From positions 1 to 32,193 of the forward strand of contig PLMK01000071.1 in NCBI GenBank assembly GCA_003142475.1: DNA of 32,193 nucleotides. Direction: 5' to 3'. The first letter of the stretch is position 1, and each line of letters begins with the position of its first letter. Origin of the DNA: Ignavibacteriota bacterium. GTDB lineage: Bacteria; Bacteroidota; Ignavibacteria; UBA10030. The notes below the pieces were generated by a model. The model did no database searches, was not told where the DNA came from, and was given only the letters and a program-made list of their open reading frames with translations. Below are positions 8,331-30,705 of this stretch, piece after piece. The position numbers and the translations under genes were made by a program.

Positions 8331-8360
8331 AATAACAATCTTCTAATTGTTATTTTCTTT
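8331..8360 (+). terminator. Hairpin terminator between convergent genes
   Basis: AATAACAAT (8331-8339) pairs perfectly with ATTGTTATT (8346-8354) across the loop CTTCTA, and TTCTTT follows on the plus strand. It lies between the convergent membrane protein and toast-rack genes and overlaps the stop codon of the latter. It best fits termination of the plus-strand transcript. Confidence 0.6.
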
Positions 8361-9219
8361 GCACCCGCACGCTGCCTAATCCGGATTCCAGACGGATAGT
8401 CAATCGTTTAGATGCGTCTTGGAAATCGCTCGTCTCATATACACCACTTCGAGTTTTCTCAAAATCATCATCAAGCTTGAAACTGGAAAGCCAGTTATCA
8501 TCGTACACTAATTTGGCGGGAATGGTATTGGGTACATACACATTGATAGAGCCGAGCCCAACTTCAATCTGCACTTCGGCACTTTGTTTAAGTTTGCCGT
8601 CGAAATCAAGTTTATAAGAACCTACACCGCCGCTAAATTTTAGATTGCGGAAATTCAAATTGCTAAGATTTGTTGCTGTGAATTTACTCACACCCGATTC
8701 AATGGAGATATCGTCTGCAGATATCGGATTTGGCTTGCTGCACTTCATCGTCACACTGCTGGCGCCTGTCGATATTTTTACATCTTTCACTTGCAAGTCG
8801 GTTAAGTCGATCTCACCATTTCCTGCTCCAAGCTCTAATTCTAAAGAAATCGGGATGGTATTGCCCAATCTGATATCAAGATGGCGATTACGATCATTGC
8901 GGTCACCATCATCGCCCCAGAAGTGTGTGGATTCTTTTAGTTTAATATACAGTGTGCCAGTTTCGTTAGAGATATCGTAAGAAATGTATAATTTTTGTTT
9001 GGCCGCTTCTTCTTCGTCGTAATCAATAGAAGCAATTTTATCCTGTTCGCTTTGTTTAATGGAAATGCTTCCGAACGAAATATCGAGAATAACCCGCAAC
9101 TCTTTCTCTTTTGTGCGGCTGAACTCACGATGTTTGTTTTCAAGTGTACTAGCAAACGCCGCGACGGCACAAACGGCACCGACGATAAGTAACAACAGAA
9201 ATTTCATAGAGTTTTTCAT
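8350..9219 (-). CDS. Secreted toast-rack (DUF4097-like/LiaF-type beta-repeat) protein
   Basis: This 289-residue protein has a signal peptide (MKNSMKFLLLLIVGAVCAVA, cleavage probable after AFA). The rest is an acidic beta-rich region with repeated short strands such as LDISFGSISIKQ, ELGAGNGEIDL, STGASSVTMKC, GGVGSYKLDF, GLGSINVYVP and, at the very end, GLGSVRVQRK. This periodic pattern is typical of the parallel beta-solenoid 'toast rack' domains found in cell-envelope stress proteins. The ATG at 9219 has AGGTGG just before it, which rules out the longer frame that overlaps the sigma gene. It lies 58 bases downstream of an ECF sigma factor on the same strand and is probably in its operon. A role in envelope sensing is inferred from this context only. 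Confidence 0.82.
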   Translation of the reverse strand: MKNSMKFLLLLIVGAVCAVAAFASTLENKHREFSRTKEKELRVILDISFGSISIKQSEQDKIASIDYDEEEAAKQKLYISYDISNETGTLYIKLKESTHFWGDDGDRNDRNRHLDIRLGNTIPISLELELGAGNGEIDLTDLQVKDVKISTGASSVTMKCSKPNPISADDISIESGVSKFTATNLSNLNFRNLKFSGGVGSYKLDFDGKLKQSAEVQIEVGLGSINVYVPNTIPAKLVYDDNWLSSFKLDDDFEKTRSGVYETSDFQDASKRLTIRLESGLGSVRVQRK

Positions 9220-9277
9220 GACCCACCTGTATGCCTCTGATATTACGTTGTCACCGCAGCAGAAGTTGCATCTATTT

Positions 9278-9943
9278 TCAATAATGACGCATTTTGTCGC
9301 GTAGCTGCTTATAAAGAAGTTCGCGGGCGCGAAAGATGTGAGCTTTAATAGTTCCAAGTGGAAGTTTCAACGTCTTTGCAATTTCTTGGTATTCTTTTTC
9401 GTCCACGTGACGCATAAGAATGACCTGCCGATACTTTGGCGGCAGTGAATCCATTGCCTCGTCTAACATTTTCTTCCGTTGAGCGGCAATTAGCTCTTGA
9501 TCTGGTTCCGGTTCTGTATCCGGCAGTTCGAATGAATAATCGCTCTCTTCAGATTCAATAGGTTTGTTGATAGAAAATGTTTGAAGCTTCCGTTTTCGAA
9601 CATGGTCGATTGCATTGTTCGTTGCTATTTTGTAAAGCCAAGTTGAGAATGAATATTCTTCATTAAAACTGGCTAGCGACGTAAATGCCTTTATAAACGC
9701 TTCCTGGATGAGATCTTCTACTTCCTCGCGGTTGCGTATCATTCGGCTGATAAGTTTGAATATTGGCGAATAATATTTTAGCCGGAGCTTGCGAAATGCA
9801 TTCTGGTCACCTGTAAGCGCTTGCCGGATGAGCGTAGAATCCTCTTTGCGCGATTCAAATCGCCTTTGCTCTATGATGCTCAATGCTCTGGGAGTTGAAA
9901 TCGGAGAAGGTGGCGGAGTATGTTTCTTCTGTACTTTAGGCAT
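9278..9943 (-). CDS. ECF-type RNA polymerase sigma factor
   Basis: This 221-residue sigma-70 family protein directs RNA polymerase to a specific promoter set. It has an unusual basic/proline-rich 35-residue leader (PKVQKKHTPPPSP). Region 2 follows at about 45-118 (LTGDQNAFRKLRLKYYSP, VEDLIQEAFIKAF, STWLYKIATNNAIDHVRKRK), then an acidic linker (about 128-150) and region 4 at about 160-213 (LPPKYRQVILMRHV, EYQEIAKTLKLPLGTIKAHI). This architecture is RpoE-like. No anti-sigma gene follows; the next gene in the operon encodes a secreted toast-rack protein. The start has only AGG directly before the ATG, and an internal start near residue 33 is possible. Confidence 0.93.
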   Translation of the reverse strand: MPKVQKKHTPPPSPISTPRALSIIEQRRFESRKEDSTLIRQALTGDQNAFRKLRLKYYSPIFKLISRMIRNREEVEDLIQEAFIKAFTSLASFNEEYSFSTWLYKIATNNAIDHVRKRKLQTFSINKPIESEESDYSFELPDTEPEPDQELIAAQRKKMLDEAMDSLPPKYRQVILMRHVDEKEYQEIAKTLKLPLGTIKAHIFRARELLYKQLRDKMRHY

Positions 9944-15277: not shown

Positions 15278-16669
15278 ATGGAAAAGATTCTATCATATAT
15301 TGAATCCAATCATGAACGTTATCTTTCTGAGCTCAAAGAACTTCTTGCAATTCCAAGTGTAAGTTCACAAACAGAACGCAAACCAGAGATGCGGCGCGCA
15401 GCCGAATGGCTTAAAAACCACATGACGAATATCGGTTTGCAGAATATGCAAATACTAGAGACCGGAGGACATCCGGTTGTGTATGCTGATTGGCTTGGTG
15501 CAGCTGGCAAACCGACGATTCTCGTTTATGGACATTACGATGTACAGCCGGAAGACCCTGTGGATTTATGGAAGACGCCCCCGTTTGAGGCAACGATCCG
15601 TGGAGAAAATTTATATGGGCGTGGTGCATCGGATGACAAAGGACAAATATTCATCCATCTAAAAGCCATCGAAGCTTTTTTGAAAAATGGCGGCGCACTG
15701 CCGATGAATATTAAAATTATTTTTGAAGGGGAAGAAGAGATCGGCAGCGAGAACCTTGCGAAGTTTATTAGCGAGCACAAAGAACTGCTCAAAGCCGATG
15801 TGATAGTCATTTCTGATTCAGGTATGTTTGCCAAAGGTGTTCCCTCTGTTACTTATGCCTTGCGTGGTTTAGCGTATATGGAAGTGGAAGTAACAGGACC
15901 AAATGGCGATCTGCATTCCGGTTCGTTCGGAGGTTCTGTGCACAATCCCATTCAAGCGCTAACGGAAATGATCGCATCTCTTCACGATAAAAACGGACGC
16001 ATCACTGTAAAAGGAATGTATGATGATGTGCGTCCTTTGACTAAAGCTGAACGTGCAGCATTTAAAGAACTGCCATGGAGCGATAAGAAGTATGCAAAGT
16101 CGCTCGGACTGAAACAACTCTATGGTGAAAAGGGATTTACAACGCTCGAACGGCTGTGGGCACGGCCAACACTTGAATGCAACGGCATCTGGGGCGGGTA
16201 CACAGGTGAAGGAGCAAAGACTGTTCTTCCAGCGAAAGCGTTCGCAAAAATTTCTATGCGATTGGTACCGGATCAGTCGTCAGAAAAAATTGCAAAGTTG
16301 TTTGAGAAGCACTTTAAGGCAATTGCACCGAAAACAGTTTCAGTACACGTACGTAACCTGCACGGTGGTGAACCGGCAATCACTCCGGTAGACAGTCCGG
16401 GTGTGCAAGCAGCTGTTGTTGCATTGGAAAAAGGATTCGGCAAAAAACCATTATATCAGCGCGAAGGCGGCTCAATCCCAATTGTGGTGGACTTTAAGAA
16501 ACTGCTCGGCATAGATTCGGTGTTGCTCGGCTTCGGCCTGCCGGATGAAAATGCTCATGCGCCGAATGAATTTCTTAATCTCGACAATTTCTTTGGCGGC
16601 ATAAAGACAGTTGCACATTATTACAAGGAATTTCCGAATTTTTGGAAGACAGGGAATCGGAAGAAGTAA
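15278..16669 (+). CDS. M20-family metallopeptidase (dipeptidase/CNDP-like)
   Basis: This 463-residue zinc amidohydrolase has the M20 residues in order: GHYDVQPEDPVDLW (H86, D88), GRGASDDKGQ (D119), EGEEEIGSEN (catalytic E153, metal E154), D180 in VISDSG, and the late histidine in DENAHAPNE. The dimerisation domain starts near 195 (LRGLAYMEVEVTGPNGDLHSG). These features match cytosolic carboxypeptidase/dipeptidase-like M20 enzymes that cleave di- and tripeptides. The ATG at 15278 has AAAGGA in front; a frame open from 15209 adds an unconserved hydrophobic leader without a ribosome site. It is divergent from the duplicated-domain gene, and the 207 bases between them (15071-15277) should hold both promoters. 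Confidence 0.93.
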   Translation: MEKILSYIESNHERYLSELKELLAIPSVSSQTERKPEMRRAAEWLKNHMTNIGLQNMQILETGGHPVVYADWLGAAGKPTILVYGHYDVQPEDPVDLWKTPPFEATIRGENLYGRGASDDKGQIFIHLKAIEAFLKNGGALPMNIKIIFEGEEEIGSENLAKFISEHKELLKADVIVISDSGMFAKGVPSVTYALRGLAYMEVEVTGPNGDLHSGSFGGSVHNPIQALTEMIASLHDKNGRITVKGMYDDVRPLTKAERAAFKELPWSDKKYAKSLGLKQLYGEKGFTTLERLWARPTLECNGIWGGYTGEGAKTVLPAKAFAKISMRLVPDQSSEKIAKLFEKHFKAIAPKTVSVHVRNLHGGEPAITPVDSPGVQAAVVALEKGFGKKPLYQREGGSIPIVVDFKKLLGIDSVLLGFGLPDENAHAPNEFLNLDNFFGGIKTVAHYYKEFPNFWKTGNRKK

Positions 16670-16710
16670 CTTAATAAATTTGAAGCCACCTTTGATTATT
16701 GCGCGATGTG

Positions 16711-17391
16711 CTATGAGCTCTCGCCCAATCCGATTTTAGCAAGTTGAGCGATATCCATGTTTTCCAAAATCTGCTTTTGATAACCAACCTCTACAGCATG
16801 AATCATAGCAAGACCGACATCTTCCAATGTGCAAATATTCCTGGGAGATATTAATTTCAACACAGGATACATCAGCCCTGCAGCTTTGAAGATTGGTTTT
16901 ACATTCTTCTGACCCTTGGTCGGTTTCATAAGCCCCGGCCTAAACAAGTATACAGATTTGAATGGTAGTTTTTTGAGATCATTTTCTGTTTTCCCTTTCA
17001 CGCGCGCCCACATCATTTTACCATGTTCAGTACTATCGGTTCCCGTTCCTGACACATAACAGAATGTCATATCGGGATTGATTCTTGATAAAGTAGTTGC
17101 CACTTGCATAGTAAGATCGTATGTAATTCGCGTGTAGTTCTGTTCATTCATTCCCACAGAAGAAACTCCAAGGCAGAAAAAGCATGCATTGTACCCTTTA
17201 AGACGCTCTTCAATGGTGGAGTAGTTGTAGAAATCATGATGAATAATCTCCTTTAATTTTTCATGCGTCACCATGCACGGTCTTCTGCCAATAATTAAAA
17301 TAGATTCTATGTTTTTATACTTAAGAGTTTCGAGGAGAACTCCCTCACCAACCATTCCCGTTGCGCCGAATATTATTGCTTTTATTTTCAT
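16711..17391 (-). CDS. Atypical short-chain dehydrogenase, TIP30/HTATIP2-like NAD(P)-binding protein
   Basis: The 226-residue protein opens with a Rossmann dinucleotide motif, IIFGATGMVGEGVL (G9-x-x-G12-x-x-G15), followed by an Arg pair (GRRP) suited to NADP. Later come CFFCLGVSSVG and the family segment SGTGTDSTE then WARVKGKTEN, where the usual catalytic Tyr position is Trp but the Lys is kept; I recall this pattern in several members of this branch. RPGLMKPTKG and the C-terminal helix also fit. The substrate is unknown. It lies 71 bases downstream of the metallo-beta-lactamase gene on the same strand and may share its transcript. Confidence 0.82.
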   Translation of the reverse strand: MKIKAIIFGATGMVGEGVLLETLKYKNIESILIIGRRPCMVTHEKLKEIIHHDFYNYSTIEERLKGYNACFFCLGVSSVGMNEQNYTRITYDLTMQVATTLSRINPDMTFCYVSGTGTDSTEHGKMMWARVKGKTENDLKKLPFKSVYLFRPGLMKPTKGQKNVKPIFKAAGLMYPVLKLISPRNICTLEDVGLAMIHAVEVGYQKQILENMDIAQLAKIGLGESS

Positions 17392-17462
17392 TTATTACCT
17401 CAGCTCATTTAAAGTACGTTCAACGCATGTGATTATCAAACGAATTATTATAACAGTAGTTT

Positions 17463-18209
17463 CTATTTTGTCTTTGTCAATAAGTCCTGAGTGTGTTTCA
17501 ATAGTTCCTGACCGCCAAAGGCTCCATGTCCGGGGATAACAATGTTAGCGGACGAGTAGGCCGCAATAACTCGAGCAATAGTCTTAGGCCATTCAGTAAG
17601 ATCGGCGTCCGCAATATTACCTAATGTTTCTGATTTTAATTCTTTAACCATACATCCTCCAAACAGTATTCTTTCTGATGGAATCCATGTTACAATATTA
17701 TCTACAGTGTGGGCAGGCCCGTAATACTTGCAAATAGCTGATTGGTTGCCGATTTGTAAAGTCAATGAATCAACAAAGCCATGTTGTGGGATCGGAAGAT
17801 TTTTGGATTTAACTATTGCTAGTGTCTTCTCGTTTGCATATGAAGAAATTCCGATACTATTGAGATAATTCAAGCCACCCATACAGTCGTCATGCCAGTG
17901 GTTCGGAACAAATCCCACAATGCGTATTTTCAGAGAATCTGTTATCCAATTTACTAATTGCTTTGTGAGCGAATCATTCATCGGTGTGTCAAACAGTAGG
18001 GCTTCTCCATTGACCGTGTATATCAATCCATTGGAACCAATCCGTCCCCATCCAGGCAATTGAGCATAGGATACATGGACATAAGAGTGCACAGAAATCT
18101 GTATTACTTCAATATCGTTTGAAACCTTAAAGTGTTTATACATTCCTTGAGAAAAAGCCGGAATGGTCAAACACAAAACGGAAATTATAATAGCTAATGA
18201 TGTGCGCAT
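17463..18209 (-). CDS. Subclass B1 metallo-beta-lactamase
   Basis: This 248-residue protein has a cleavable signal peptide (MRTSLAIIISVLCLTIPAFS) and should act in the periplasm. The full B1 zinc ligand set is present: H104-W-H106-D-D108 in NHWHDDCMGG, H167 in GPAHTVDN, C186 in LFGGCMVKE, and H228 in IPGHG. The Cys at the second zinc site and the spacing mark subclass B1, the branch containing CcrA, BlaB, IND, VIM and NDM, rather than a glyoxalase-type MBL-fold hydrolase. Segments such as GGCMVKELKSETLGNIADAD are strongly like the BlaB/CcrA/IND side. Known B1 enzymes hydrolyse penicillins, cephalosporins and carbapenems; whether this one does is inference. No integron, transposase or resistance cassette surrounds it, so it looks chromosomal. 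Confidence 0.93.
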   Translation of the reverse strand: MRTSLAIIISVLCLTIPAFSQGMYKHFKVSNDIEVIQISVHSYVHVSYAQLPGWGRIGSNGLIYTVNGEALLFDTPMNDSLTKQLVNWITDSLKIRIVGFVPNHWHDDCMGGLNYLNSIGISSYANEKTLAIVKSKNLPIPQHGFVDSLTLQIGNQSAICKYYGPAHTVDNIVTWIPSERILFGGCMVKELKSETLGNIADADLTEWPKTIARVIAAYSSANIVIPGHGAFGGQELLKHTQDLLTKTK

Positions 18210-18375
18210 ACATTTCCCTGTTAGGAATATTTCTTAACTCGGAATAATAGGTTTTGTATGTAGTACACTAATTTTTTTATACGCCACAGGATTATTTTAA
18301 CATCAAAAAGAAGACAAAATGTAAATGGCAATATTTTTCATAATCATACTTTTATATTATTGTATTTAATAATTA

Positions 18376-19290
18376 TTAGCACATTTTATGATTTTTATTG
18401 TTTTTCATAAATGCCAGAACACCATCTATTTCCGGCGCATTTAAGGTATGCGGGATCGTCAGACACACACATGCAGCCACAGCCGATGCAAAATCTATTG
18501 TTGTCTTATCGTCCCATGATTTCAAAATGCCATAAATGATACCAGAACGGAATGAGTCTCCTGCACCTGTTGTATCAAGCGGTGTAATGTTGTAAGGTTT
18601 ATATGTTCTCAGTTGCTGACCTTTACGTGCGTACCACAATTCATCACTGCCAAAAGTAAATATGATTAGACCATTGCAATGGGTTTGATATTTTTCAAAG
18701 ACTTCAAACATGTTACTTGTGGGATATGCCTGCTCTCGTAATTCATGGGAAATTATTACAGCTTCCGCATTCTGGGCAATGAAGTCGGTATATCTGCAAT
18801 CAAGTGTGACATACGGCTTTTTATTTCGCACACACATTTGTGCGGTACTCAATGCTTCCTCCTTGAAATATGGATCCAAACCAATTATCGCTGCATTTTG
18901 TATATCTTCTTCTTTAGAGGTATTCCACTGTTTATTTCCTGAATGAAATTTAGCATAATTACCAAATACTGTGCGCGAATTTTTATCGGTAATGACAAAT
19001 TCCTCGGCACCGCAATTTTGTTTTATTGCTAAACGTGAAATATCAATGTTAAAAGGTTTCAAAAGCTTTATAATTTTATCAGCATTATTCTGGTTTAACC
19101 AATTACCGTCGAGTTTTGTTTTCATGCCGAGCTTTGATAACATAATCGCTGAATTTACGGCTTCGCCACCGACCGAAGAAAAAGATTGCTTTATTTCTGC
19201 ATATTGATTCGGTTGAGGAAAAGCAAAAGCATCGTCAATAATGTAAACTGTACTCGGAGCAATCATACCATAAAGATATACGTCATACAT
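18376..19290 (-). CDS. PfkB-family sugar/nucleoside kinase
   Basis: This 304-residue ribokinase-fold kinase has the glycine motif GGEAVNSAIMLSKLG (residues 41-55), which contacts the sugar, and the C-terminal signature DTTGAGDSFRSGI (239-251) with catalytic Asp at 245 and the anion hole. It phosphorylates a sugar or nucleoside with ATP; the exact substrate cannot be read. It is alone in direction with moderately long gaps on both sides (about 165 and 100 bases), so it is probably its own transcript. The region 18210-18375 upstream of the beta-lactamase shows no feature. Confidence 0.9.
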   Translation of the reverse strand: MYDVYLYGMIAPSTVYIIDDAFAFPQPNQYAEIKQSFSSVGGEAVNSAIMLSKLGMKTKLDGNWLNQNNADKIIKLLKPFNIDISRLAIKQNCGAEEFVITDKNSRTVFGNYAKFHSGNKQWNTSKEEDIQNAAIIGLDPYFKEEALSTAQMCVRNKKPYVTLDCRYTDFIAQNAEAVIISHELREQAYPTSNMFEVFEKYQTHCNGLIIFTFGSDELWYARKGQQLRTYKPYNITPLDTTGAGDSFRSGIIYGILKSWDDKTTIDFASAVAACVCLTIPHTLNAPEIDGVLAFMKNNKNHKMC

Positions 19291-19391
19291 AACTGATTTT
19301 TCCGTTCATGAAATATAATTTGATAGTGTCACATTCTGTTTTGATCAAGCATGTATGAATAAAATAATTCATGAAGACCTAATTGTCTCCG

Positions 19392-20057
19392 TTAATATTT
19401 TTTATCCTTAAATAATGTGTTTCCCTTTACCAACCATGAAATACCGAACGCTATTAATGCTATGGATTCAAGTATCAACACAGGGTTTATTTTTGAAATA
19501 GATGTATTCCTTAAAAAAATCATATATATACTTATGCATACTATTGCCATAATCATCACGATACCGCAAATGCGATAAATTATATTCCTTCGCTTTTTTT
19601 CTTTACTAAGAACACCCGGTCCACGTTTTGTAAAGAGAAATATCGAGTTGAACGACAATGAAAGAAAAAACAATGCACCGAAAGCCAAATGTATATATTC
19701 GGAAATATTATCGTTGATAAGAAACATTCCTACTTTAACAACTTTCCCCGAGAACATAGAAGTCGGAAAGATCATCATTCCCAAAGCAAACACTCCGCTC
19801 ATGTTTCCAATGATATCATCAATTTTTTTATACCCTTTATATGACAGGAGAAATAGAGTAACTCCGCAGAGTATTCCGATAAAAAAATCATGCATGTTTG
19901 TATAATAATAGCCGCTTATTGATCCTTGTATAGCAGTTCCATCCTGAATAAATCCTCCTGCTACAACTATGATAGGCAGCGCTATTCCCAGAATACCTAT
20001 CAATCTTCGCATTGCTAAGTACGAGATTATCAGATTTTTATTTTGACTCTCTAACAT
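19392..20057 (-). CDS. Multipass membrane protein of unknown function (DUF998-like)
   Basis: The 221-residue protein has about six predicted membrane segments, the first at about 16-37 (RLIGILGIALPIIVVAGGF). A conserved-looking loop, GSISGYYYTNMHDFFIGIL, is followed by a short polar turn (YKGYKKIDDIIGNMSG). The pattern resembles DUF998-type small membrane proteins, but I am not certain of the family. AAGG lies eight bases before the ATG. It is the last gene of a tight minus-strand run with the isochorismatase-like and LysE-like genes (48 and 51-base gaps), so it is probably co-transcribed with them. Confidence 0.7.
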   Translation of the reverse strand: MLESQNKNLIISYLAMRRLIGILGIALPIIVVAGGFIQDGTAIQGSISGYYYTNMHDFFIGILCGVTLFLLSYKGYKKIDDIIGNMSGVFALGMMIFPTSMFSGKVVKVGMFLINDNISEYIHLAFGALFFLSLSFNSIFLFTKRGPGVLSKEKKRRNIIYRICGIVMIMAIVCISIYMIFLRNTSISKINPVLILESIALIAFGISWLVKGNTLFKDKKY

Positions 20058-20105
20058 ATTAAGACCTTTGATTATTTACTTACAAAGTAGGTTCTCAATT
20101 CTTCC

Positions 20106-20597
20106 TTATTCTAAAACTTTTTTCAATGCCTTATAACTAATAATTTCATTTATACTTTCAATGATTCTTAAGTTCTCAAGATTTCTACTTGCTATTCCAT
20201 CCTTTAATAATATTGGAACTAAATCTTGGTCTAATGCACCTATATATGTTCCCTGGATACAGAATTCTGCACGATAACCAGTAATAATAACTGTATCTAT
20301 ATTTTCTTTTCTTATAATCTCCAGACAATTTGTCTTATTAAATGTATTTCTATATCGCTTCTGGACTCTATAATCGTTGGAATGAGGTTTTAATTGTTCG
20401 ATAAATTCAAATCCTACTTTCCCTGACTCAGACCCATCTTCTTCGTCAATATGCTGAACCCAAATAATAGGCAGATTCTTTTTCCTAAATAATGGGATAA
20501 CGGCATTTATGAAGCCACAGGCATTATCCATTGATTTTTTTGTTTCATCATCATAATAAGCTTTCTGTAAGTCAATTATCATTAATGCAGGTTTCAT
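20106..20597 (-). CDS. Isochorismatase-family cysteine hydrolase
   Basis: This 163-residue enzyme has the catalytic triad of the isochorismatase/nicotinamidase superfamily: D9 in IIDLQKAYY, K80 in RVQKRYRNTF, and C113 in GYRAEFCIQGT. The small size and no other domains suggest a nicotinamidase-like or amidohydrolase-like role on a small molecule; the substrate is not known. ATG 20597 is chosen because AAGGAG precedes it by seven bases (AAGGAGTTGAGAATG); a TTG two codons earlier would overlap that site. It lies between the LysE-like exporter and a membrane protein. Confidence 0.88.
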   Translation of the reverse strand: MKPALMIIDLQKAYYDDETKKSMDNACGFINAVIPLFRKKNLPIIWVQHIDEEDGSESGKVGFEFIEQLKPHSNDYRVQKRYRNTFNKTNCLEIIRKENIDTVIITGYRAEFCIQGTYIGALDQDLVPILLKDGIASRNLENLRIIESINEIISYKALKKVLE

Positions 20598-20648
20598 TCT
20601 CAACTCCTTATCATAAGATCTTAACCGTCTGCTGGGTATCGTTTATAT

Positions 20649-21278
20649 TTAATTGCTTAATATTTTTATTCCATCATAGAAGAAGAATATCGCGAATATA
20701 AAAAGAGTTATTCCAAGTATACGCATAGCCCAAATGTAAGCTCTGTTATCTAATAAAGTTTTTGATCTTTCCACTATCAACACAATACAAATTTTCGAAC
20801 CAATTAATAGAGTGTAAAATGAAAGAAAATAAAGAATTACTGTAACTAAGCTTATTCCATAGGCTTTAAATGCAATTGGAGTGCCGATTGTAAGCCAAAA
20901 AAGATATGGACTCGGATTTAAAAAATTTGCAGTTACTCCCTTTTTTAAAGAATCAGATTTGAGTCTTTGTACATTAATATCTAATCCCTTCGACTTTATG
21001 GCCTCATATCCCAGATAAGCAATAAAAATCCCTCCAAGAAATGAAATCAAACTTAATACAATATTAAACTGCGAGAACTTAGAAAAAATAAAATATGTAA
21101 TAACAATAATAGGTATGTCTGTAATCAATGGAGAAATTGCAATTTTTATTCCCTCTGTTTTATTGTGTTGTAAAGTCTCAGTAATAACAAGAGTGAGCAA
21201 AGGTCCCGGAGATATTCCCGCAGTTAAACCGAAGAATACTCCCATCGTTAAAAATTGTAAAGAAGAAACTGTAATCAT
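20649..21278 (-). CDS. LysE/RhtB-family amino-acid exporter
   Basis: This 209-residue protein has about six membrane segments and the family signature near the N-terminus, GLTAGISPGPLLTLVITETL (residues 18-37), with the SPGP motif. The middle segment NFLNPSPYLFWLTIGTP is also typical. LysE/RhtB proteins export amino acids or related small molecules. The cargo is unknown; pairing with an isochorismatase-like hydrolase hints at a shared small-molecule substrate, which is inference. No Shine-Dalgarno is seen before the ATG. Confidence 0.88.
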   Translation of the reverse strand: MITVSSLQFLTMGVFFGLTAGISPGPLLTLVITETLQHNKTEGIKIAISPLITDIPIIVITYFIFSKFSQFNIVLSLISFLGGIFIAYLGYEAIKSKGLDINVQRLKSDSLKKGVTANFLNPSPYLFWLTIGTPIAFKAYGISLVTVILYFLSFYTLLIGSKICIVLIVERSKTLLDNRAYIWAMRILGITLFIFAIFFFYDGIKILSN

Positions 21279-21416
21279 AAAATAAATATATCAGATTTAT
21301 ACTTAAAGTTGGACCATTCTTTGCTTTGCAACTAACGTCTCTTTGTTTCCAAATTATTTTACCCGCCTATCTTGATGGCAGAGCGTTTGGTAACATGTAT
21401 AATATTATTTTTTTAC

Positions 21417-21660
21417 TTAGTTAAAGGTTCCTGCAAATACAATAGCGTACATAAGAAGTATTATGCTAACGATTGCCCCGATGAGGCCTTCATCGGCCAG
21501 GAGTTGTGTCTGTTCATCCCAGAAAACTGCAAAACCTGTAATTTACTGTAACTGCACCAATGATCGCAAGTGGACGTCACATTGAAGCAAGAAAATCTTC
21601 AATTTGATTGTCGACTAATGGTGCTTCTTTACGAAAAATAATCCGTCTTTTTTTGTAATA
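21417..21660 (-). pseudogene. Remnant of a small membrane-protein gene
   Basis: Within a 390-base gap, the minus strand reads KKRRIIFRKEAPLVDNQ then IEDFLASM, an in-frame TGA, and RPLAIIGAVTV. After a one-base shift it continues TGFAVFWDEQTQLLADEGL and a hydrophobic helix (IGAIVSIILLMYAIVFAG) ending FN and a TAA at 21417. The two pieces together look like a protein of about 80 residues with one or two membrane helices. The layout slightly recalls three-helix holins, but this is not secure. The remainder of 21279-21668 holds nothing recognisable. Confidence 0.5.
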
Positions 21661-21668
21661 AACCTTTT

Positions 21669-22595
21669 TTACATCGACCATTGTTCTGCATGAATATCGA
21701 CCTCATCCGACCAGCGGTACTGCAATCGAACAATTTCGTCTCGAATTTCCGACGGTAATGGTTTGATATTTTTTGATGATGAAAGGAAGTCGTTAAGATT
21801 ATCCGAGCGACTTGTCGCACCAACAGTCGCACGTACTTGAGGAAAGCTAAAGGCAAATCGCACACAAAACTCAGCCCAGCTTTTAATTCCTGAACGCTCG
21901 AAGATCGGTGCAACTTCAGCAGCGCGCTTTTGTAAATATTCTTTCCACGCTGCGCCGGGAACATCGCGCAAACGGTGAACATTGCCTCCTGCAACAGTGC
22001 GCAACGCGATGATGGGTTCGTTCATCTCTTTTATTAAATTCCATAATTCATTGGATGCAAATCGTTGGAGCGGATTAAAATAAAAAATGCAGCCGTCAAC
22101 TACATCTTTCGTATAACCGCCGCGCAATGCTTTGAGTGCCGTATTGGATGTCCATGGGAAGACTTCAAGTACAAATCGTTTTACCGTTCCTTCTTTTCTT
22201 AACTGTGAAAATGTTCCATAACACGCGCCTCCATGAGCAAAGTCTTCAGCGAGTTGCCCGCCAAGACAGAGCTGTCCTATATCGATACTCTTTAAACCTA
22301 AGGGATCGATGTTTTGATGAATGACATCGCGCAATTCTTCAACTGTATTCCAGCCGATCTTTACGATTAACTTTGGGACTTTTGTGCGATCCTGATCGAA
22401 AGCTGTACGCAGAACTTCAAGTGCATTTCCATACGTATGGCTGGTATGAAACCAGACACCTGAGTCCATTGCTGCCCGCGCTATCTTCACCCGCTCGGCA
22501 AAAGAAATTTTATCATCACCTAATCTTGTTGTTCCATATATATACTGTGAGAGGTCGGTTAATAAACCTGATTTATCTGAATTTGTTTTATCCAT
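21669..22595 (-). CDS. Aldo/keto reductase homologue with altered catalytic residues
   Basis: This 308-residue TIM-barrel protein has aldo/keto reductase features: GTTRLGDD near 21, an FxTxxxYG loop (residues 49-56), LIVKIGW (K79), IDIGQL (104-109), and GATSRSDNLNDF in the C-terminal NADPH-binding part. Of the usual Asp-Tyr-Lys-His tetrad, Tyr55 and Lys79 are present. The Asp position reads His50 (FHTSHTYG where DTA is usual), and the His position after QL reads Cys110. Classic carbonyl reduction is therefore doubtful. It follows the cupin gene by 74 bases on the same strand. Confidence 0.8.
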   Translation of the reverse strand: MDKTNSDKSGLLTDLSQYIYGTTRLGDDKISFAERVKIARAAMDSGVWFHTSHTYGNALEVLRTAFDQDRTKVPKLIVKIGWNTVEELRDVIHQNIDPLGLKSIDIGQLCLGGQLAEDFAHGGACYGTFSQLRKEGTVKRFVLEVFPWTSNTALKALRGGYTKDVVDGCIFYFNPLQRFASNELWNLIKEMNEPIIALRTVAGGNVHRLRDVPGAAWKEYLQKRAAEVAPIFERSGIKSWAEFCVRFAFSFPQVRATVGATSRSDNLNDFLSSSKNIKPLPSEIRDEIVRLQYRWSDEVDIHAEQWSM

Positions 22596-22669
22596 TTGGA
22601 AAATCCTTTTTCCATTATCGTATTCGGTTCATTAAAATTTTCTAGCTTATTCTACATTGAGCGCCGCAA

Positions 22670-23020
22670 TTATGGAACGGCAGCATCAGTGTCTAAAAAT
22701 TTCTTATAGTCCTCTCGCGGAGGCGAAAATATTTCTAATGCTATTGAATCTTCTAGAGTTTCTGCTTGATGCGAAATATTCTTTGGAATGCACCAGCTGT
22801 CGCCCTTATTCATTTCATATTTCTTTTCGCCGATTTGAAGAAGGAGCTTTCCAAAAACTAAATATCCCGTTTGTTCATAGGGATGGTCATGACGCGGCAG
22901 GGTGCTTTTATTCGATAAGTGAACCTCTGTCATGAGTGTTGCTTCACCAAGCACGAGTGTCTTAATCCGAATTCCTTCTATGATAGGGTGATAATTTTTA
23001 TCGGAATGTCTGCTAATCAT
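22670..23020 (-). CDS. Small cupin-domain protein
   Basis: This 116-residue single-domain cupin has a first motif with histidines at PRHDHPYEQTGYLVFG and a second at GDSWCIPKNISHQAE, giving the usual His/Glu metal-binding set. Such proteins act as small metal enzymes or sensors; the ligand is not known. GGAGG lies five bases before the ATG at 23020, so that start is preferred over the upstream in-frame ATGs at 23023, 23032 and 23053. It begins 36 bases after the class D beta-lactamase stop codon and is likely in its transcript. Confidence 0.87.
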   Translation of the reverse strand: MISRHSDKNYHPIIEGIRIKTLVLGEATLMTEVHLSNKSTLPRHDHPYEQTGYLVFGKLLLQIGEKKYEMNKGDSWCIPKNISHQAETLEDSIALEIFSPPREDYKKFLDTDAAVP

Positions 23021-23056
23021 CATAACCTCCATCTCCTCATATGAACTTCTCAATTT

Positions 23057-23875
23057 CTATTTAATGATTTTCAATTCCCTCAATATGGTCTTCGTCAGTT
23101 CAATCCGGAAGTTATTTTTCAATTCATCAAAACTATCGACGATGATGTTCATCGCAAATACACTAGCGCCCGCATCAGTCTCCACAAACCCGACATACCA
23201 GGCAAGAAACTTATCCTCAAAACAATCGCCTGTACCTGTCTTTCCAAACAGTTTATACTGCGGCGTAGATTCGTACAGCATAATGCCTTTGACGGTATTA
23301 ATAGATTTATCCGAGAATCCGTTCAGCTGATGCATATACAGTTTCTTCAGAAATTCAATTTGTTCATTGATTGAAATCTGCATGGAGCCGCACAGCCAAA
23401 ACGTATCATCTCCGCTCGAGATATCCTTGTTGCCGTAATCAAGAAGAGTGACATACTTTGCCATGCGCTCATGCCCAATTCTCTTTGCCAATTCCTGATA
23501 ATACCACACACACGAATATTTAAAAGCCTTCTTGAGAGACAAATCCTGAAACCAGTATTTGAACGGCTCTATGTTTAACATTTCTGCATCTCTCGGATGC
23601 AACACACTGTCATACTTGATAATAAATTCGGAATTGGGCACAACTCCGGTTTCCAAGCCAATGAGGGAGTTGGGAATCTTAAACGTAGAACACGGCGAAA
23701 GTCTTTTCTTACAGTGTTCAACATTGTATTGAATATACATGTCCGTTTTGAAATTATAGACACTGAATCCGCCCACGTGATCGCCAAAATGGGATTTGAG
23801 ATCGACTGTATCAATCGTTTGACAAAAGACATTGATGGTCAATATGAACAAACAAAGCAACAAGAGGTTTTTCAT
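23057..23875 (-). CDS. Class D (OXA-type) beta-lactamase
   Basis: This 272-residue serine beta-lactamase has all class D motifs: S63-T-F-K66 (catalytic Ser; the Lys is carboxylated in known enzymes), S121-C-V123, Y147-G-N149, K212-T-G214 and W226-x-x-G229. The N-terminus MKNLLLLCLFILTINVFCQ is a signal peptide, so the product is periplasmic. ATG 23875 is preferred over a longer frame beginning at 23920, because the signal peptide starts there and GGAA lies upstream. The domain lacks membrane helices, which argues against the related BlaR/MecR sensors. Hydrolysis spectrum cannot be predicted. There is no mobile cassette around it. Confidence 0.94.
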   Translation of the reverse strand: MKNLLLLCLFILTINVFCQTIDTVDLKSHFGDHVGGFSVYNFKTDMYIQYNVEHCKKRLSPCSTFKIPNSLIGLETGVVPNSEFIIKYDSVLHPRDAEMLNIEPFKYWFQDLSLKKAFKYSCVWYYQELAKRIGHERMAKYVTLLDYGNKDISSGDDTFWLCGSMQISINEQIEFLKKLYMHQLNGFSDKSINTVKGIMLYESTPQYKLFGKTGTGDCFEDKFLAWYVGFVETDAGASVFAMNIIVDSFDELKNNFRIELTKTILRELKIIK

Positions 23876-24043
23876 GTAATCATTCCGAATGAAGTGGCAA
23901 AGAATTGACCTGTCCACCAAAAAAGCGATCCATTATGAACTTAGCAAAAAGTATATTATGTATCAAAGGAGCAGAATGATTTATCCGTGCAGAAGCGAAA
24001 TGACAACGCCGCTGTTTGCTGATAAATGTAAAATTAAATATTA

Positions 24044-24454
24044 TTACCCCGTTCGCAGTTTTTGCTTGATGCCGAAATAGATGCCCCAGAATACCACGGC
24101 AAACGGTACATAGATCAATGCCTCTGATGGATGTTCAAGGAACAGAAAAGCTGATCCGTTGTCGGTATGGTAATATGAAAATGGGCACAGCGAGCAGAAA
24201 ATGGCGAAAGCAAGCACAAACGATCGCACTTTCATCCATCGCCGTGTGGATTTCAATGCTCTCACTTCTTCAGTGGGCATCAATGAAGGAACATCTTTTT
24301 CGGAAAACAGATCTTTGTACTTCTGTCGTGATTGTTGTTCAAACTTCGGATGTTCCTGAAAATATTCTTCCACCAACGTCTTCGTATCACTGCTGCATTC
24401 GTTTACAAAATACAACGGCAGCAGATCACTCATCACTTCTTCTGTTATCTTCAT
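24044..24454 (-). CDS. Anti-sigma-factor-like membrane protein
   Basis: This 136-residue protein begins ITEEVMSDLLPLYFVNECSS, then DTKTLVEEYFQEHP. It is laid out like the N-terminal anti-sigma domain of zf-HC2 proteins but without the zinc Cys/His residues. Two membrane helices follow (about 77-93 and 110-128). ATG 24454 has AAGGAG at good spacing, which decides against the frame open from 24490. It is the last gene of the sigma/CPBP/anti-sigma-like minus-strand operon, consistent with holding the upstream ECF sigma factor at the membrane. That role is inferred from shape and position. Confidence 0.75.
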   Translation of the reverse strand: MKITEEVMSDLLPLYFVNECSSDTKTLVEEYFQEHPKFEQQSRQKYKDLFSEKDVPSLMPTEEVRALKSTRRWMKVRSFVLAFAIFCSLCPFSYYHTDNGSAFLFLEHPSEALIYVPFAVVFWGIYFGIKQKLRTG

Positions 24455-26322: not shown

Positions 26323-26799
26323 ATGACAGAAAGAATCAGATTCAAACTCAATGGGCAACCCGTCGAGTTGACAACTGATTCAGAGCGAATGCTGCTCTGG
26401 GTCTTGCGAACTGATTTGGGCTTGACGGGAACGAAATTCGGCTGCGGCGAAAGCTTCTGCGGCGCGTGCACTGTGCTCGTGGATGATCTGGCTGTGCGGT
26501 CGTGTGCGACACCTCTCAAAAATGTTCAAGACAAGGGTGTGACAACTATTGAAGGGCTGGCGAAAGGGGGAAAGCTTCATCCATTGCAAAAGGCATTCGT
26601 GGAGCACGATGCACTCCAGTGCGGATATTGCACTCCTGGGATGATTATGAATGCCTTCTCGGTGTTGAAGAAACATCCTCACCCGACGGTCGCAGAGATT
26701 ATCGAAGGGATGGATGACAACTTCTGTCGCTGTGGAGCTCATAACCGGATTATTCAGGCAATACAGGTTGCGGCGAAGGAAATGGAAAGAGGAAACTAA
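26323..26799 (+). CDS. (2Fe-2S)-binding small subunit of a xanthine dehydrogenase-family hydroxylase
   Basis: This 158-residue protein carries two [2Fe-2S] clusters that pass electrons from the molybdenum site to an external acceptor. The plant-type cluster ligands are C41, C46, C49 (GCGESFCGACT) and C61. The second, helical-domain cluster uses C100 and C103 (QCGYCTPG) and C135 and C137 (FCRCG). It matches the small subunits of isoquinoline 1-oxidoreductase, aldehyde and CO dehydrogenase relatives. AGGGG precedes the ATG. One base separates its stop from the start of the large subunit. No FAD subunit gene is present, pointing to the two-subunit (IorAB-like) type that donates to a cytochrome or quinone. 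Confidence 0.95.
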   Translation: MTERIRFKLNGQPVELTTDSERMLLWVLRTDLGLTGTKFGCGESFCGACTVLVDDLAVRSCATPLKNVQDKGVTTIEGLAKGGKLHPLQKAFVEHDALQCGYCTPGMIMNAFSVLKKHPHPTVAEIIEGMDDNFCRCGAHNRIIQAIQVAAKEMERGN

Positions 26800-26800
26800 C

Positions 26801-28960
26801 ATGAAAGACGACCAATACTCAGGACTGGAGTTCCTCGAGCAACCATCTGAGATGGAGATGAGCCGGCGCGATTTTTTCAAAACAGCCGGCGCAGGAATCT
26901 ACGTTCTGTTCACGATCGGTGATTCTTTGGTTTCCTGGCAAGAGAGACAAGGAATACCTCAGAGGAGTACGCCGACCGATTTCAATGCTTTTCTGAAAAT
27001 CGGTGAAGACGGTCGAATTGCATGCTACACAGGAAAAATTGAAATGGGGCAAGGTGTTGTCACTTCTCTTGGTCAAATGCTGGCTGATGAACTCGATGCG
27101 GAAGTCGAGTCCGTCGATATGGTAATGGGTGATACCGACCTTTGTCCCTGGGATATGGGGACATTCGGTTCTATGTCGACCCGTATCTTCGGACCAGCAC
27201 TTCGGACAGCAGGTGCTGAAGCCAGATATGTCCTCCTCGAACTCGGCTCGGAACACTTAAAGATTCCTGTGGAACAACTTACAACGGCTAATGGCTTCGT
27301 TATCGATAAAACGAAAAAGGAGAATCGGGTTTCCTATGCTCAGCTCGTAAAGGGGAAAAAGATCGAACGTCACCCTACAGGAAAAGTGAGCGTCAAGAAA
27401 CCTTCCGAATTTAAGATTATGAACAAGTCGCTGACTCGCAGAGACTCTGAGGAAAAGGTCACGGGCAAAGCAAAATACGCTGGTGATATTCGGCTCCCCG
27501 GAATGCTCTATGCTAAAGTTCTGCGTCCCCCGGCGCACGGATCGAAACTCCTCGATGCGGATATTTCTGAAGCAAAAGAAGTAGAAGGCGTGCAGGTAAT
27601 CAAAGAAGGAGATTTTATTGCCGTTCTCCACAAGTATCCAGACGTCGCGGAATCCTCCCTGTCAAAGATCAAGGCGAAATTTGACGTACCAAAATCAGAT
27701 ATCGATGACAAGAACATCTTCGACCATCTGCTGAAGGTTGCCCCCGAGGGAAAAGTCGTTGCAAAGGAGGGTGATCTTCAGGCGGGTCAGAATGGAGCAA
27801 AGGCAACAGTTGAGGCGACCTATTTCAACGACTATGTAGCGCACTCGCCTATTGAACCGCACACTGCGATCGCGCAAGTCGAAGGTAACAAAGCAACCGT
27901 GTGGGCATCGACTCAAAACCCCTTCACGGCCAAAGAGGAAGTCGCCAGAGAACTCGGCTTCGCTTCGCAAAATGTGCGAGTGATTACCCCCTTCGTCGGT
28001 GGAGGCTTTGGCGGCAAGACAAGGAACCTGCAAATTGTTGAAGCGGCCCGCCTCTCGAAGATGACAGGGAAACCGGTGCAAGTCGCATACACCAGAGAAG
28101 AGGAATTCTTCTTCGATGCATTTCGCCCTGCAGCGATTGTAAAAATTAAATCAGGTATCACGGATCGTGGGAAGATCAATTTTTGGGACTACCACGTCTA
28201 TTTCGCTGGCGAACGTGGAGCCCAGCATTTCTATGATATCCCCAATCATTGCACGACCGTATACAATTCGAGTTGGGTTGGCGCTGCGGGCTCACATCCG
28301 TTTGCAACAGGACCATGGCGCGCCCCGGGAAACAACACAAACACCTTCGCACGAGAATCGCAGATCGAAATGATGGCAGCAAAAGCGGGAGTGGACCCGG
28401 TTGAATTCCGTTTGCAGAACCTGACCGACAAGAAAATGATACGTGTCCTTAAAACTGCTGCCGAAAAATTCGGCTGGAAACCGATGAAGGGTCCAAGCGG
28501 ACAAGGCTTTGGAGTGGCATGTGGGATCGATGCTGGAACATATGTCGCGTCGATCGCGCACGTCGAAGTCAACAAAACGACAGGCATGGTGCAGGTGAAA
28601 AGAGTTGTGTGCGCACAGGATATGGGTCTCGTCATTAATCCCGAAGGGGCAACCATTCAAATGGAAGGCTGCATCACTATGGGACTTGGGTACGCCCTTT
28701 CGGAGAAAGTTGTCTTTAAAGGGGGTGAGATCCTAACCTCCAACTTTGATACATATGAGATTCCCAGGTTCTCATGGCTCCCCAAGATAGAGACTGTCAT
28801 CATCGAGAATAAGGATGCTGATCCTCAGGGAGGTGGTGAACCCGCCATCGTGACCATGGGAGCTGTTGTGGCAAACGCTATCTATGATGCCGTCGGTGTC
28901 AGACTTTTCCAATTGCCAATGACATCCGACAGGATTAAGGAGGCATTAAAGAAAACATAA
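26801..28960 (+). CDS. Molybdopterin-binding large subunit, xanthine dehydrogenase family (IorB-like), Tat-exported
   Basis: This 719-residue catalytic subunit hydroxylates an aldehyde or N-heterocycle at a molybdenum-cytosine-dinucleotide type cofactor. A twin-arginine signal lies at SRRDFFKTAGAG (R22-R23) after an acidic 20-residue leader, so it should be folded in the cytoplasm and exported. Cofactor motifs include KIEMGQGVVTSL, THVGGGFGG-type GGGFGGKT, EPHTAIA, GPWRAPG, and the catalytic Glu in GGGEP (E680). AGAGGAAA before ATG 26801 sets the start; the longer open frame from 26714 lies inside the small-subunit gene. Codon usage looks GC-richer than in neighbours. The substrate is unknown, and no maturation gene (XdhC/MobA-like) is in the window. 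Confidence 0.94.
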   Translation: MKDDQYSGLEFLEQPSEMEMSRRDFFKTAGAGIYVLFTIGDSLVSWQERQGIPQRSTPTDFNAFLKIGEDGRIACYTGKIEMGQGVVTSLGQMLADELDAEVESVDMVMGDTDLCPWDMGTFGSMSTRIFGPALRTAGAEARYVLLELGSEHLKIPVEQLTTANGFVIDKTKKENRVSYAQLVKGKKIERHPTGKVSVKKPSEFKIMNKSLTRRDSEEKVTGKAKYAGDIRLPGMLYAKVLRPPAHGSKLLDADISEAKEVEGVQVIKEGDFIAVLHKYPDVAESSLSKIKAKFDVPKSDIDDKNIFDHLLKVAPEGKVVAKEGDLQAGQNGAKATVEATYFNDYVAHSPIEPHTAIAQVEGNKATVWASTQNPFTAKEEVARELGFASQNVRVITPFVGGGFGGKTRNLQIVEAARLSKMTGKPVQVAYTREEEFFFDAFRPAAIVKIKSGITDRGKINFWDYHVYFAGERGAQHFYDIPNHCTTVYNSSWVGAAGSHPFATGPWRAPGNNTNTFARESQIEMMAAKAGVDPVEFRLQNLTDKKMIRVLKTAAEKFGWKPMKGPSGQGFGVACGIDAGTYVASIAHVEVNKTTGMVQVKRVVCAQDMGLVINPEGATIQMEGCITMGLGYALSEKVVFKGGEILTSNFDTYEIPRFSWLPKIETVIIENKDADPQGGGEPAIVTMGAVVANAIYDAVGVRLFQLPMTSDRIKEALKKT

Positions 28961-29060: not shown

Positions 29061-29160
29061 CTTGAAGAATCCTCTGAATACTAAACCCGGGAATATACCG
29101 TTGCAACCTAAGCAAGGTTTGGCTACATTTTGTGTGAAAGCGAAATAATTGGAGGCTAAA

Positions 29161-30099
29161 TTGAGTTACGAAAGTAAGATTTTCAAAGAACTATCTCTTC
29201 CAAATCGGGATGAAGTTATCCATGTCTTATTAATGTCCTTGCTTAAACGCAATGGATATATAAAGGAATTTGGGTCGGGTAATCAAGAATTCGTAAATGA
29301 ACTTGCGGATTTGCTTGGTTTATCAATACAACAACGTTCTTTTCTCATGCAAACAATTGTGAAAAAAGAAGGACGAATTAAGACTTTTCCAGCATGGCAT
29401 CGACTTTTATTCAGAGCTGCTGATACTGCAGCAAAGGAAAATCTACTTTCACACCCAAAAGATACTTTAAAGATTACTGGAAAGCGAGAATGGATGCTGA
29501 CAGAAAAGGGCTGTGATGAGGCTTTTCGTCTTTCAAAAATCCCAATCGTCAGAAAACAAGAACTTCCAATTATAACCTATGAAGTTCAGAAAATCAAAAA
29601 CTCTTTAGAGAAAGCGGAACGGATCAAAAATTACAATCCTGTTGATACTACTAAAAGAACAAAAATAACGACACGAGAATCATTGTTACGTTCAAGAGGT
29701 TTTAGACAAGCAATTATCCAATCCTATGATTATAGATGCTGTATTTGTGGATTAAAAATTGCTTCACCTGATAACCTAACATGGGAAGTTGAAGCAGCCC
29801 ATATTGTTCCCAACAGATTCTATGGAAAAGATGATATTTGGAATGGAATTGCACTTTGTCATTTTCATCATTGGTCATTTGATGTAGGTTGGTTTACACT
29901 ACGTAATGATTTTACAATTGAGGTTAACGATAGGATTGAAAAAATTCCAAGAGAACACGGCTATATGGGCAACTTCGATATTTTACGTCAATCATTAAAA
30001 CCTAATAAATCGATAGTGTTGCCTAAAAAAAATTCAATCTTCCCACACGAAAACGCTATTTCTTGGCATCGTAACAACATCTTTTTGCATACAAAATAG
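29161..30099 (+). CDS. HNH endonuclease with an N-terminal winged-helix-like domain
   Basis: This 312-residue protein begins at TTG 29161, five bases after GGAGG; an in-frame TTG at 29149 lies before that site. Residues about 15-125 resemble a winged-helix domain like those at the N-terminus of Mrr-type restriction enzymes (VLLMSLLKRNGYIKEFGSGN and WMLTEKGCDEAFRL). The C-terminal HNH nuclease (HNH_2 type) is clear: C193-xx-C196 in YRCCICG, the AAHIVPNRF motif (H214), DIWNGIALC (N228, C233), HFHHWSFDVG (H236-H237). All catalytic and zinc residues appear intact. It is probably a stand-alone restriction (type IV-like) or defence nuclease; no methyltransferase is nearby. The gene is AT-rich, unlike the preceding operon. 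Confidence 0.87.
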   Translation: MSYESKIFKELSLPNRDEVIHVLLMSLLKRNGYIKEFGSGNQEFVNELADLLGLSIQQRSFLMQTIVKKEGRIKTFPAWHRLLFRAADTAAKENLLSHPKDTLKITGKREWMLTEKGCDEAFRLSKIPIVRKQELPIITYEVQKIKNSLEKAERIKNYNPVDTTKRTKITTRESLLRSRGFRQAIIQSYDYRCCICGLKIASPDNLTWEVEAAHIVPNRFYGKDDIWNGIALCHFHHWSFDVGWFTLRNDFTIEVNDRIEKIPREHGYMGNFDILRQSLKPNKSIVLPKKNSIFPHENAISWHRNNIFLHTK

Positions 30100-30312: not shown

Positions 30313-30705
30313 TTGAATTGGGGAAACAGTTCTCAGTATAAGGCGTTACGTGACCATTTTAAAAAAGCAGTCCAAATTCTCAAACAATCGAAATCAGTAA
30401 AAGCAGTTCAACCGGTTCTTGCATCTTGTTATGGTAAAAGAAAAACTACGGATAATGGAGAATATTTAAAAATATGTGGACAAGAATTTTGGTTTTTTAT
30501 TAGTGGAAATAAAAATTTGTATACTGATATTATTGAGCCGATTGGACATCAAGCCAAAGAACATAATCAACATTATGAAGAGGAACGTGCTGTACTTATT
30601 AATAAATTCACATCAGAGTTTTCTCGAAATTTTTGTGTCGCTGGAAGAATTGATTGGAAAAGACTTGTTCAATTTAATAGTGGTAATCTAAAAGAAAGCG
30701 AATAA
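30313..30705 (+). pseudogene. C-terminal fragment of a PmeII-type type II restriction endonuclease
   Basis: From TTG 30313 the frame reads NWGNSSQYKALRDHFKKAV, CYGKRKTTDNGEY, ICGQEFWFFISGNKNLY, IIEPIGHQAKEHN, VLINKFTSEFSRNFC, and RIDWKRLVQFNSGN. This matches the C-terminal half of PmeII-family restriction enzymes as I remember them. In full-length relatives the catalytic core ends in a segment like 'I-K-S-G-P-N-W-G-N-S-S-Q', so this piece begins almost exactly where the catalytic lysine motif would end, and the nuclease residues are gone. No ribosome site precedes the TTG. The frame behind it is closed by the stop of the 60-aa gene. It is a relic, possibly still transcribed with its neighbours. 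Confidence 0.75.

Follow-up and report, generated by a model that had tools for sequence, protein, structure and literature searches.

A CfiA/CcrA-like subclass B1 metallo-beta-lactamase gene on the chromosome of a member of the Ignavibacteria

Introduction

Berglund et al. 2017 (PMC5637372) report that imipenem was hydrolysed in E. coli by 18 of the 21 novel B1 metallo-beta-lactamase (MBL) genes tested and that, in the CcrA group (group B1-3), five of eight genes did so, all three failures of the set coming from B1-3. The same paper names chromosomal hosts of the CcrA group among Bacteroidetes only, applies an identity threshold of 70%, assigns both ECV-1 and MYO-1 to group B1-3 and describes SPS-1 as active despite a glycine at position 116 (PMC5637372). 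A second report indicates that MYO-1, ECV-1 and SHD-1 are active when purified, at <5% to ~70% of the activity of NDM-1 (PMC7443720). Our search, judged by titles and abstract openings, found no publication on a metallo-beta-lactamase gene in Ignavibacteria.

The stretch of DNA analysed here (the window, 32,193 nucleotides, positions 1-32193 of contig C76) derives from a 3.58-Mb host genome that is 98.98% complete. A previous reading of the window, made from its sequence only, had called a complete subclass B1 metallo-beta-lactamase at 17463-18209.

Results

The gene and its active site

Analysis of the minus strand from 18209 to 17463 revealed a single intact open reading frame of 248 codons followed by a stop codon. 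The coordinates given earlier were thus correct, and the strand, which had been left unstated, is minus; a gene on the plus strand at 17463-18209 was ruled out by stop codons throughout that frame. The features of the gene are as follows.

17463 to 18209, minus strand: subclass B1 metallo-beta-lactamase gene, 248 aa, CfiA/CcrA-like, of an unnamed family (profile, structure model and trees)
18147 to 18209, minus strand: probable Sec signal peptide, residues 1-21, ending AFS/QG (by eye from the translation)
17886 to 17900, minus strand: HxHxD motif with zinc ligands H104, H106 and D108, BBL 116, 118 and 120 (motif positions and alignment)
17709 to 17711, minus strand: zinc ligand H167, BBL 196 (motif positions and alignment)
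17652 to 17654, minus strand: zinc ligand C186, BBL 221, followed by K189, BBL 224 (motif positions and alignment)
17526 to 17528, minus strand: zinc ligand H228, BBL 263 (motif positions and alignment)

The N-terminus of the deduced protein is hydrophobic and ends in a site resembling that of signal peptidase I, and no lipobox cysteine was seen there, both judged by eye; the AF2 confidence over the N-terminal helix was low. The HxHxD stretch reads H104-W-H106-D-D108. Alignment with CfiA2, VIM-2, IMP-1 and NDM-1 placed all six B1 zinc ligands where the sequence-only reading had put them (H104, H106, D108, H167, C186 and H228), and none of the six columns varied when the window protein was aligned with 17 relatives (18 sequences in all). 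K224 and N233 also have their counterparts in the protein, as K189 and N198, and loop L3 (PGWG) contains a tryptophan. We take K189 and N198 to correspond to BBL 224 and 233 and PGWG to be loop L3; K224 and N233 presumably help to hold the substrate in B1 enzymes.

The ligand table covered 93 rows, drawn from an alignment of ungapped rows. In three of the 93, H116 was replaced by glycine, as in SPS-1: L051:9844-10740 (minus strand, genome G003), L052:5397-6278 (minus strand, genome G001) and L151 (genome G389). G001 and G003 belong to the same genus as the host and G389 to the same class, and these rows grouped together (SH-aLRT 98, 99-row tree). In the two same-genus proteins, about 27 residues are inserted ahead of the PNKTF stretch.

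Assignment to subclass B1

The protein scored 267.6 bits against the NCBIfam subclass B1 equivalog NF033088 (cut-off 200, E = 7.7e-80), and the best 25 NCBIfam models were all B1 families. Pfam at E 1e-3 gave no match to the protein, and the NCBIfam, PDB and fold matches concurred on the family. On the CfiA family model NF000322 the score was 273.2 bits, far below the cut-off of 550, and therefore the enzyme is not CfiA; a CfiA allele was ruled out on this score together with an identity to CfiA of about 48%. The best PDB sequence match was B. fragilis CcrA (1kr3, E 1.4e-81). The AF2 model, built from an 18-row alignment, had a pLDDT of 93.8 and a pTM of 0.87, and Foldseek placed this model closest to CcrA (1a7t; 0.8 A over 220 columns, 50% identity); the best 50 structures listed were all metallo-beta-lactamases, with CcrA first.

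Two phylogenetic trees were constructed. The first, a quick tree with SH-aLRT support only, held 99 rows, 92 of B1 proteins and seven of an outgroup, and no B2 or B3 sequences; a 560-residue row (L161) was left out. It was rooted on the seven outgroup rows, MBL-fold proteins that match the window protein weakly (E 1.9e-15 to 2.2e-6), one of them being the other match in the host genome itself (contig C18), which scored 91.7 bits on the B1 model and has no cysteine at 221. The 92 B1 rows, the window protein included, stood apart from the seven distant rows (SH-aLRT 98), and the window protein fell in a 20-row group with CfiA (SH-aLRT 95). The B1 tree proposed in the earlier reading therefore places the protein inside B1, on the CfiA/CcrA side, among sequences that include no B2 or B3 enzymes. 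Ligands, B1 profile, AF2 fold and tree agree with its call of a complete subclass B1 enzyme.

The second, more careful tree held 79 rows. Partial rows L011, L020 and L029 (the last being the remnant from sister genome G004 described below) and the L004 copies L107 and L144 were dropped from it, and the duplicate loci L025, L080, L101, L104, L109 and L111 had been skipped when relatives were collected; G584, G598 and a decayed fragment from G001 (contig C53) are in neither tree. The window protein formed a clade with four other Ignavibacteria sequences (support 98/94 for all five and 95/85 for the inner four), and the tree gave no resolution among the CfiA group, the wider group of the window protein and a third group.

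Relatives and distribution

The closest intact relative found was 68% identical and came from an Ignavibacteriae MAG of another genus in the same family (G009), and further close relatives (60-64%) came from another family of the order. An intact copy from the host's own genus (G002) was 50% identical and lay outside the supported clade of the window protein. Judged by these identities, the nearest relatives, apart from the broken G004 copy, are in another genus and other families and not in the host's own genus. The window enzyme is 68% identical to the nearest intact sequence found here and about 48% to the nearest with a name, and so would fall under the 70% threshold of Berglund et al.

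Matches to B1 over the cut-off were found in 42 of the 391 genomes drawn from the class and in 61 of the 395 drawn from the phylum, the host included in each case; in the phylum-wide set, loci were taken for the best 30 matches only. With the window protein as query, 13 of 61 near relatives (host included) gave a match at E 1e-3, several of which were remote MBL-fold proteins. When the label Ignavibacteria was traced on the 79-row tree, it changed 13 times, at least eight of these on well-supported branches, compared with an average of 25.5 for shuffled labels. Since the closest sequences lie outside the genus, the G002 copy is only 50% identical and the label changes repeatedly, we read the distribution as one of repeated transfer and loss and not of ancestral inheritance.

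The scheme of the genome set unites the class Ignavibacteria and Bacteroides in one phylum, so the extension of the host range is a step from class to class; a genome counted as same phylum (G288) carries the same protein as Bacteroides ihuae. The suggestion of a complete B1 enzyme on the chromosome of a poorly sampled lineage, here the Ignavibacteria, was borne out.

Neighbourhood and mobility

The nearest neighbours of the MBL gene and a second beta-lactamase homologue lie on the same strand.

16711 to 17391, minus strand: NAD(P)-binding epimerase-like gene, downstream of the MBL gene with a gap of 71 bp (Pfam Epimerase match just under the cut-off)
18376 to 19290, minus strand: PfkB-family carbohydrate kinase gene, upstream of the MBL gene with a gap of 166 bp (Pfam)
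23057 to 23920, minus strand: divergent, complete-looking class D beta-lactamase homologue, 4.8 kb from the MBL gene (STFK, SCV, YGN and KTG)

Further upstream, also on the minus strand, are genes for a DUF998-like membrane protein (below the Pfam cut-off), an isochorismatase-like hydrolase, a LysE-type exporter and an aldo-keto reductase. The genes for the hydrolase, the exporter and the membrane protein dip to a GC content of 30-33%, and the MBL gene has one of 39.9%, against 40.9% for the window.

The chromosomal, non-cassette setting described by the sequence-only reading broadly stood: a Pfam scan of 26 window ORFs (E 1e-3) revealed no transposase or integrase, the contig carrying the gene is 109,833 bases long, and no plasmid or phage match supported a mobile location. 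In the plasmid collection the best among the matches listed was CfiA2 (47.6%) and all 2741 matching records were below 60% identity; the phage collection gave no match to the MBL, and the viral contigs gave no confirmed relative of it. A phage- or plasmid-borne gene was ruled out by these searches, and within the scans made no integron, IS or plasmid context of the kind that marks the mobile B1 genes was found. Insertion with flanking repeats was ruled out as well, the longest repeat in 16600-24100 being one of 31 nt at 71%. The description of the surroundings as ordinary metabolic genes did not hold in full, as it had overlooked the class D homologue.

Comparison of the window genes with the loci of relatives (tblastn) showed that the neighbours are common only to G004, and a conserved operon partner was therefore ruled out. 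Since they were not found at the tested MBL-bearing loci outside G004, the neighbours give the enzyme no pathway context. The genome gave no match to the BlaI family of regulators and a single class A model match, under the cut-off, and an inducible bla regulon was ruled out on these grounds. Promoter-like sites in 16600-19400 were at chance level (12, against 11.2 +/- 4.0 expected) and no terminator was found in the same interval; with no BlaI-type regulator either, nothing ties expression of the MBL gene to beta-lactams.

Several other genes of the window were noted. A SigW-like ECF sigma factor is followed by a toast-rack/LiaF-like cell-envelope protein at 8350-9943 (minus strand), and the pair, about 7.5 kb away from the MBL gene, may be an envelope-stress module. 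On the plus strand are a TPR-CHAT protein with a lipoprotein-like N-terminal signal, by eye (4209-6836), two subunits of the molybdopterin aldehyde/xanthine oxidoreductase type (2Fe-2S and MoCo) with no adjacent FAD subunit noticed (26323-28960), an HNH endonuclease that resembles phosphorothioate-dependent restriction enzymes, under the model cut-off (29149-30099), and, after it, a short ORF (30313-30705), probably a fragment, whose match is to the C-terminal portion of the EcoO109I restriction endonuclease family.

The class D homologue

The protein encoded at 23057-23920 carries STFK at 78, SCV at 136, YGN at 162 and KTG at 227, and we take STFK, SxV, YGN and KTG to be the motifs of class D beta-lactamases. 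Its score on NCBIfam NF012161 was 221 bits, under the cut-off of 250. It was matched in 11 of 61 relatives (host included), at 87% identity in G004, 74% in G005 and 41-46% in the others. In G004 the class D gene and the MBL remnant are on different contigs, and in G005, whose genome gave no MBL match, the class D gene is flanked by those for the hydrolase and the aldo-keto reductase; the pairing of the B1 and class D genes is accordingly loose. The host genome gave just one further class D match, a weak one (31.9 bits) inside a penicillin-binding protein (PBP) gene. PBPs are the usual targets of beta-lactams, and the genome has, the class D gene apart, four genes for PBP transpeptidases.

The class D and aldo-keto reductase genes of the window flank a gene for a cupin protein (22670-23053, minus strand), and in G005 the same two genes flank a cupin-like ORF of similar size, identified by eye (L142 5400-5756, plus strand).

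The locus in the sister genome and selection

Sister genome G004 also has most of the block bounded by rlmN and the epimerase-like gene, mostly at 79-96% protein identity, with one small ORF at 68% and a 42-residue piece of another at 60%; window ORFs at 832, 6803 and 13314 were unmatched in the G004 stretches read. Adjoining the epimerase-like gene, G004 carries an MBL remnant (L047:15005-15226) that comprises the C-terminal 74 residues and is 79.7% identical to the window protein. Nucleotide comparison placed the break at about 17688 in window coordinates. Beyond it, G004 runs into the flank of an acetyltransferase-like gene, which is located on contig C29 in the host genome, and the two matches at the junction overlap by 11 bases, within a short stretch common to both parents. 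These alignments suggest that the MBL gene was present at the locus before the host and G004 separated and was then cut in one species, probably by a rearrangement at short homology.

The G004 remnant showed a dN of 0.11 and a dS of 0.82, and the neighbouring gene 0.10 and 0.94; since the values are close, the cut is, compared with the split, probably recent. As G004 keeps only the last 74 residues at the locus, the gene is dispensable in the sister species, and its absence from most relatives together with the G004 fragment shows that it is not essential to the genus. In G001 and G003 the stretches read that surround the epimerase-like gene, 9 kb and 11 kb long, contained no MBL gene. Elsewhere in G001, of the same genus, a decayed B1 gene fragment with four stop codons was observed (L050:7693-8028, minus strand, contig C53).

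Comparison of the window gene with the G009 copy gave a dN/dS of 0.12 at a dS of 1.94, a value at which synonymous sites are nearly saturated. Among 15 MBL pairs, six gave dN/dS values of 0.12-0.22 and nine failed on saturated dS. The values obtained are consistent with purifying selection on the MBL.

Discussion

The window very probably encodes a periplasmic di-zinc metallo-beta-lactamase belonging to the CfiA/CcrA side of subclass B1; the gene is an accessory one on the chromosome, and its product would protect penicillin-binding proteins against the beta-lactams of neighbours. The gene is intact, has every ligand and the predicted B1 fold, and falls within B1; known B1 enzymes were the guide to its export, zinc binding, hydrolysis, spectrum and ecological role. 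By this analogy the protein would be exported through Sec to the periplasm and would bind two zinc ions, one by H104, H106 and H167 and the other by D108, C186 and H228. The bound zinc would activate a water molecule (hydroxide) and the beta-lactam ring would be opened, with K189 (BBL 224) and N198 (BBL 233) helping to hold the substrate. The PBPs of the cell would then be shielded from beta-lactams of neighbours, carbapenems probably included. Carbapenemase activity is likely on the same grounds, and the role would most likely be intrinsic beta-lactam tolerance. The E. coli results of Berglund et al. (18 of 21 genes) and the activity of purified MYO-1 and ECV-1 speak for this reading, the three failures within the CcrA group against it.

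It is improbable that the protein is instead a B1-fold zinc hydrolase acting on a non-antibiotic substrate, such as a cell-wall or signalling molecule, with weak or incidental hydrolysis of beta-lactams. Such a substrate would suit the neighbouring sugar kinase, isochorismatase-like hydrolase, exporter and aldo-keto reductase and the genome's want of a BlaI-type regulator, and three environmental B1 enzymes are given <5% to ~70% of NDM-1 activity in one report (PMC7443720). The neighbour genes were, however, not found at the MBL loci tested outside G004, the full B1 active site is kept, K224 and N233 included, and the patchy presence looks like that of a dispensable protective trait.

We give very little credence to the proposal that the enzyme has recently become non-functional or unexpressed and is a relic being lost as in the sister species. 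The truncated G004 copy at the same locus and the decayed fragment of another B1 copy in G001, with its four stops, would fit such a loss, but in the window the gene has its full length, no ligand has been lost and dN/dS against G009 is low. Least credible of all is a strong form of the ancestral enzyme suggested by the sequence-only reading, namely a vertically inherited B1 carbapenemase defining the root of the CcrA group: five Ignavibacteria sequences, including that of the window, do form a supported clade (98/94) and the gene was apparently at the locus before the G004 split, but the protein nests on the CfiA/CcrA side, Ignavibacteria rows are scattered (13 changes in the 79-row tree, at least eight on well-supported branches), the intact same-genus G002 copy (50%) lies outside the clade and just 42 of 391 class genomes have a B1 match over the cut-off.

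The protective B1 beta-lactamase is thus the preferred reading. A wider and more speculative proposal, which we regard as possible and not as probable, is that genes of the CfiA/CcrA side of B1 are exchanged through an unrecognised pool in Ignavibacteria, with repeated cassette-free moves and losses among Ignavibacteria, Bacteroidia and perhaps Delongbacteria, and that a B1 and a divergent class D gene were here brought within 5 kb as a small beta-lactam defence stretch. The involvement of Delongbacteria comes from one MAG contig.

Mechanistically the window enzyme adds nothing new; it belongs by sequence to a well-known kind that is scattered through its relatives. It does widen the host range, taking CcrA-like B1 enzymes to Ignavibacteria, and it offers an instance in which one species retains such a gene and its sister has a truncated copy, at a locus where no mobile element was seen. 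This bears on where carbapenemase genes reside outside clinics.

Comparison with known systems

The nearest counterparts are the B1 genes of the Ignavibacteriae MAGs fen_1254 (L003) and fen_1286 (L004), which are full length, 68% and 64% identical to the window protein and members of its clade; their loci carry none of the neighbour genes of the window, except for a weak sigma-factor similarity in L004. ECV-1 and MYO-1, environmental B1 enzymes of Bacteroidota, have the common B1 fold and are 36% and 34% identical to the window model, and they come from other hosts. SPS-1 shares only the subclass, and has a glycine where the window enzyme keeps H116. The closest described system is CfiA/CcrA, from which the window enzyme differs in identity (about 48%), in its score of 273.2 of 550 bits on the family model and in a host that is not Bacteroides, and which it resembles in the best profile, PDB and fold matches, in all zinc ligands, in equal length, in a tryptophan-bearing L3 loop and in its side of the B1 tree.
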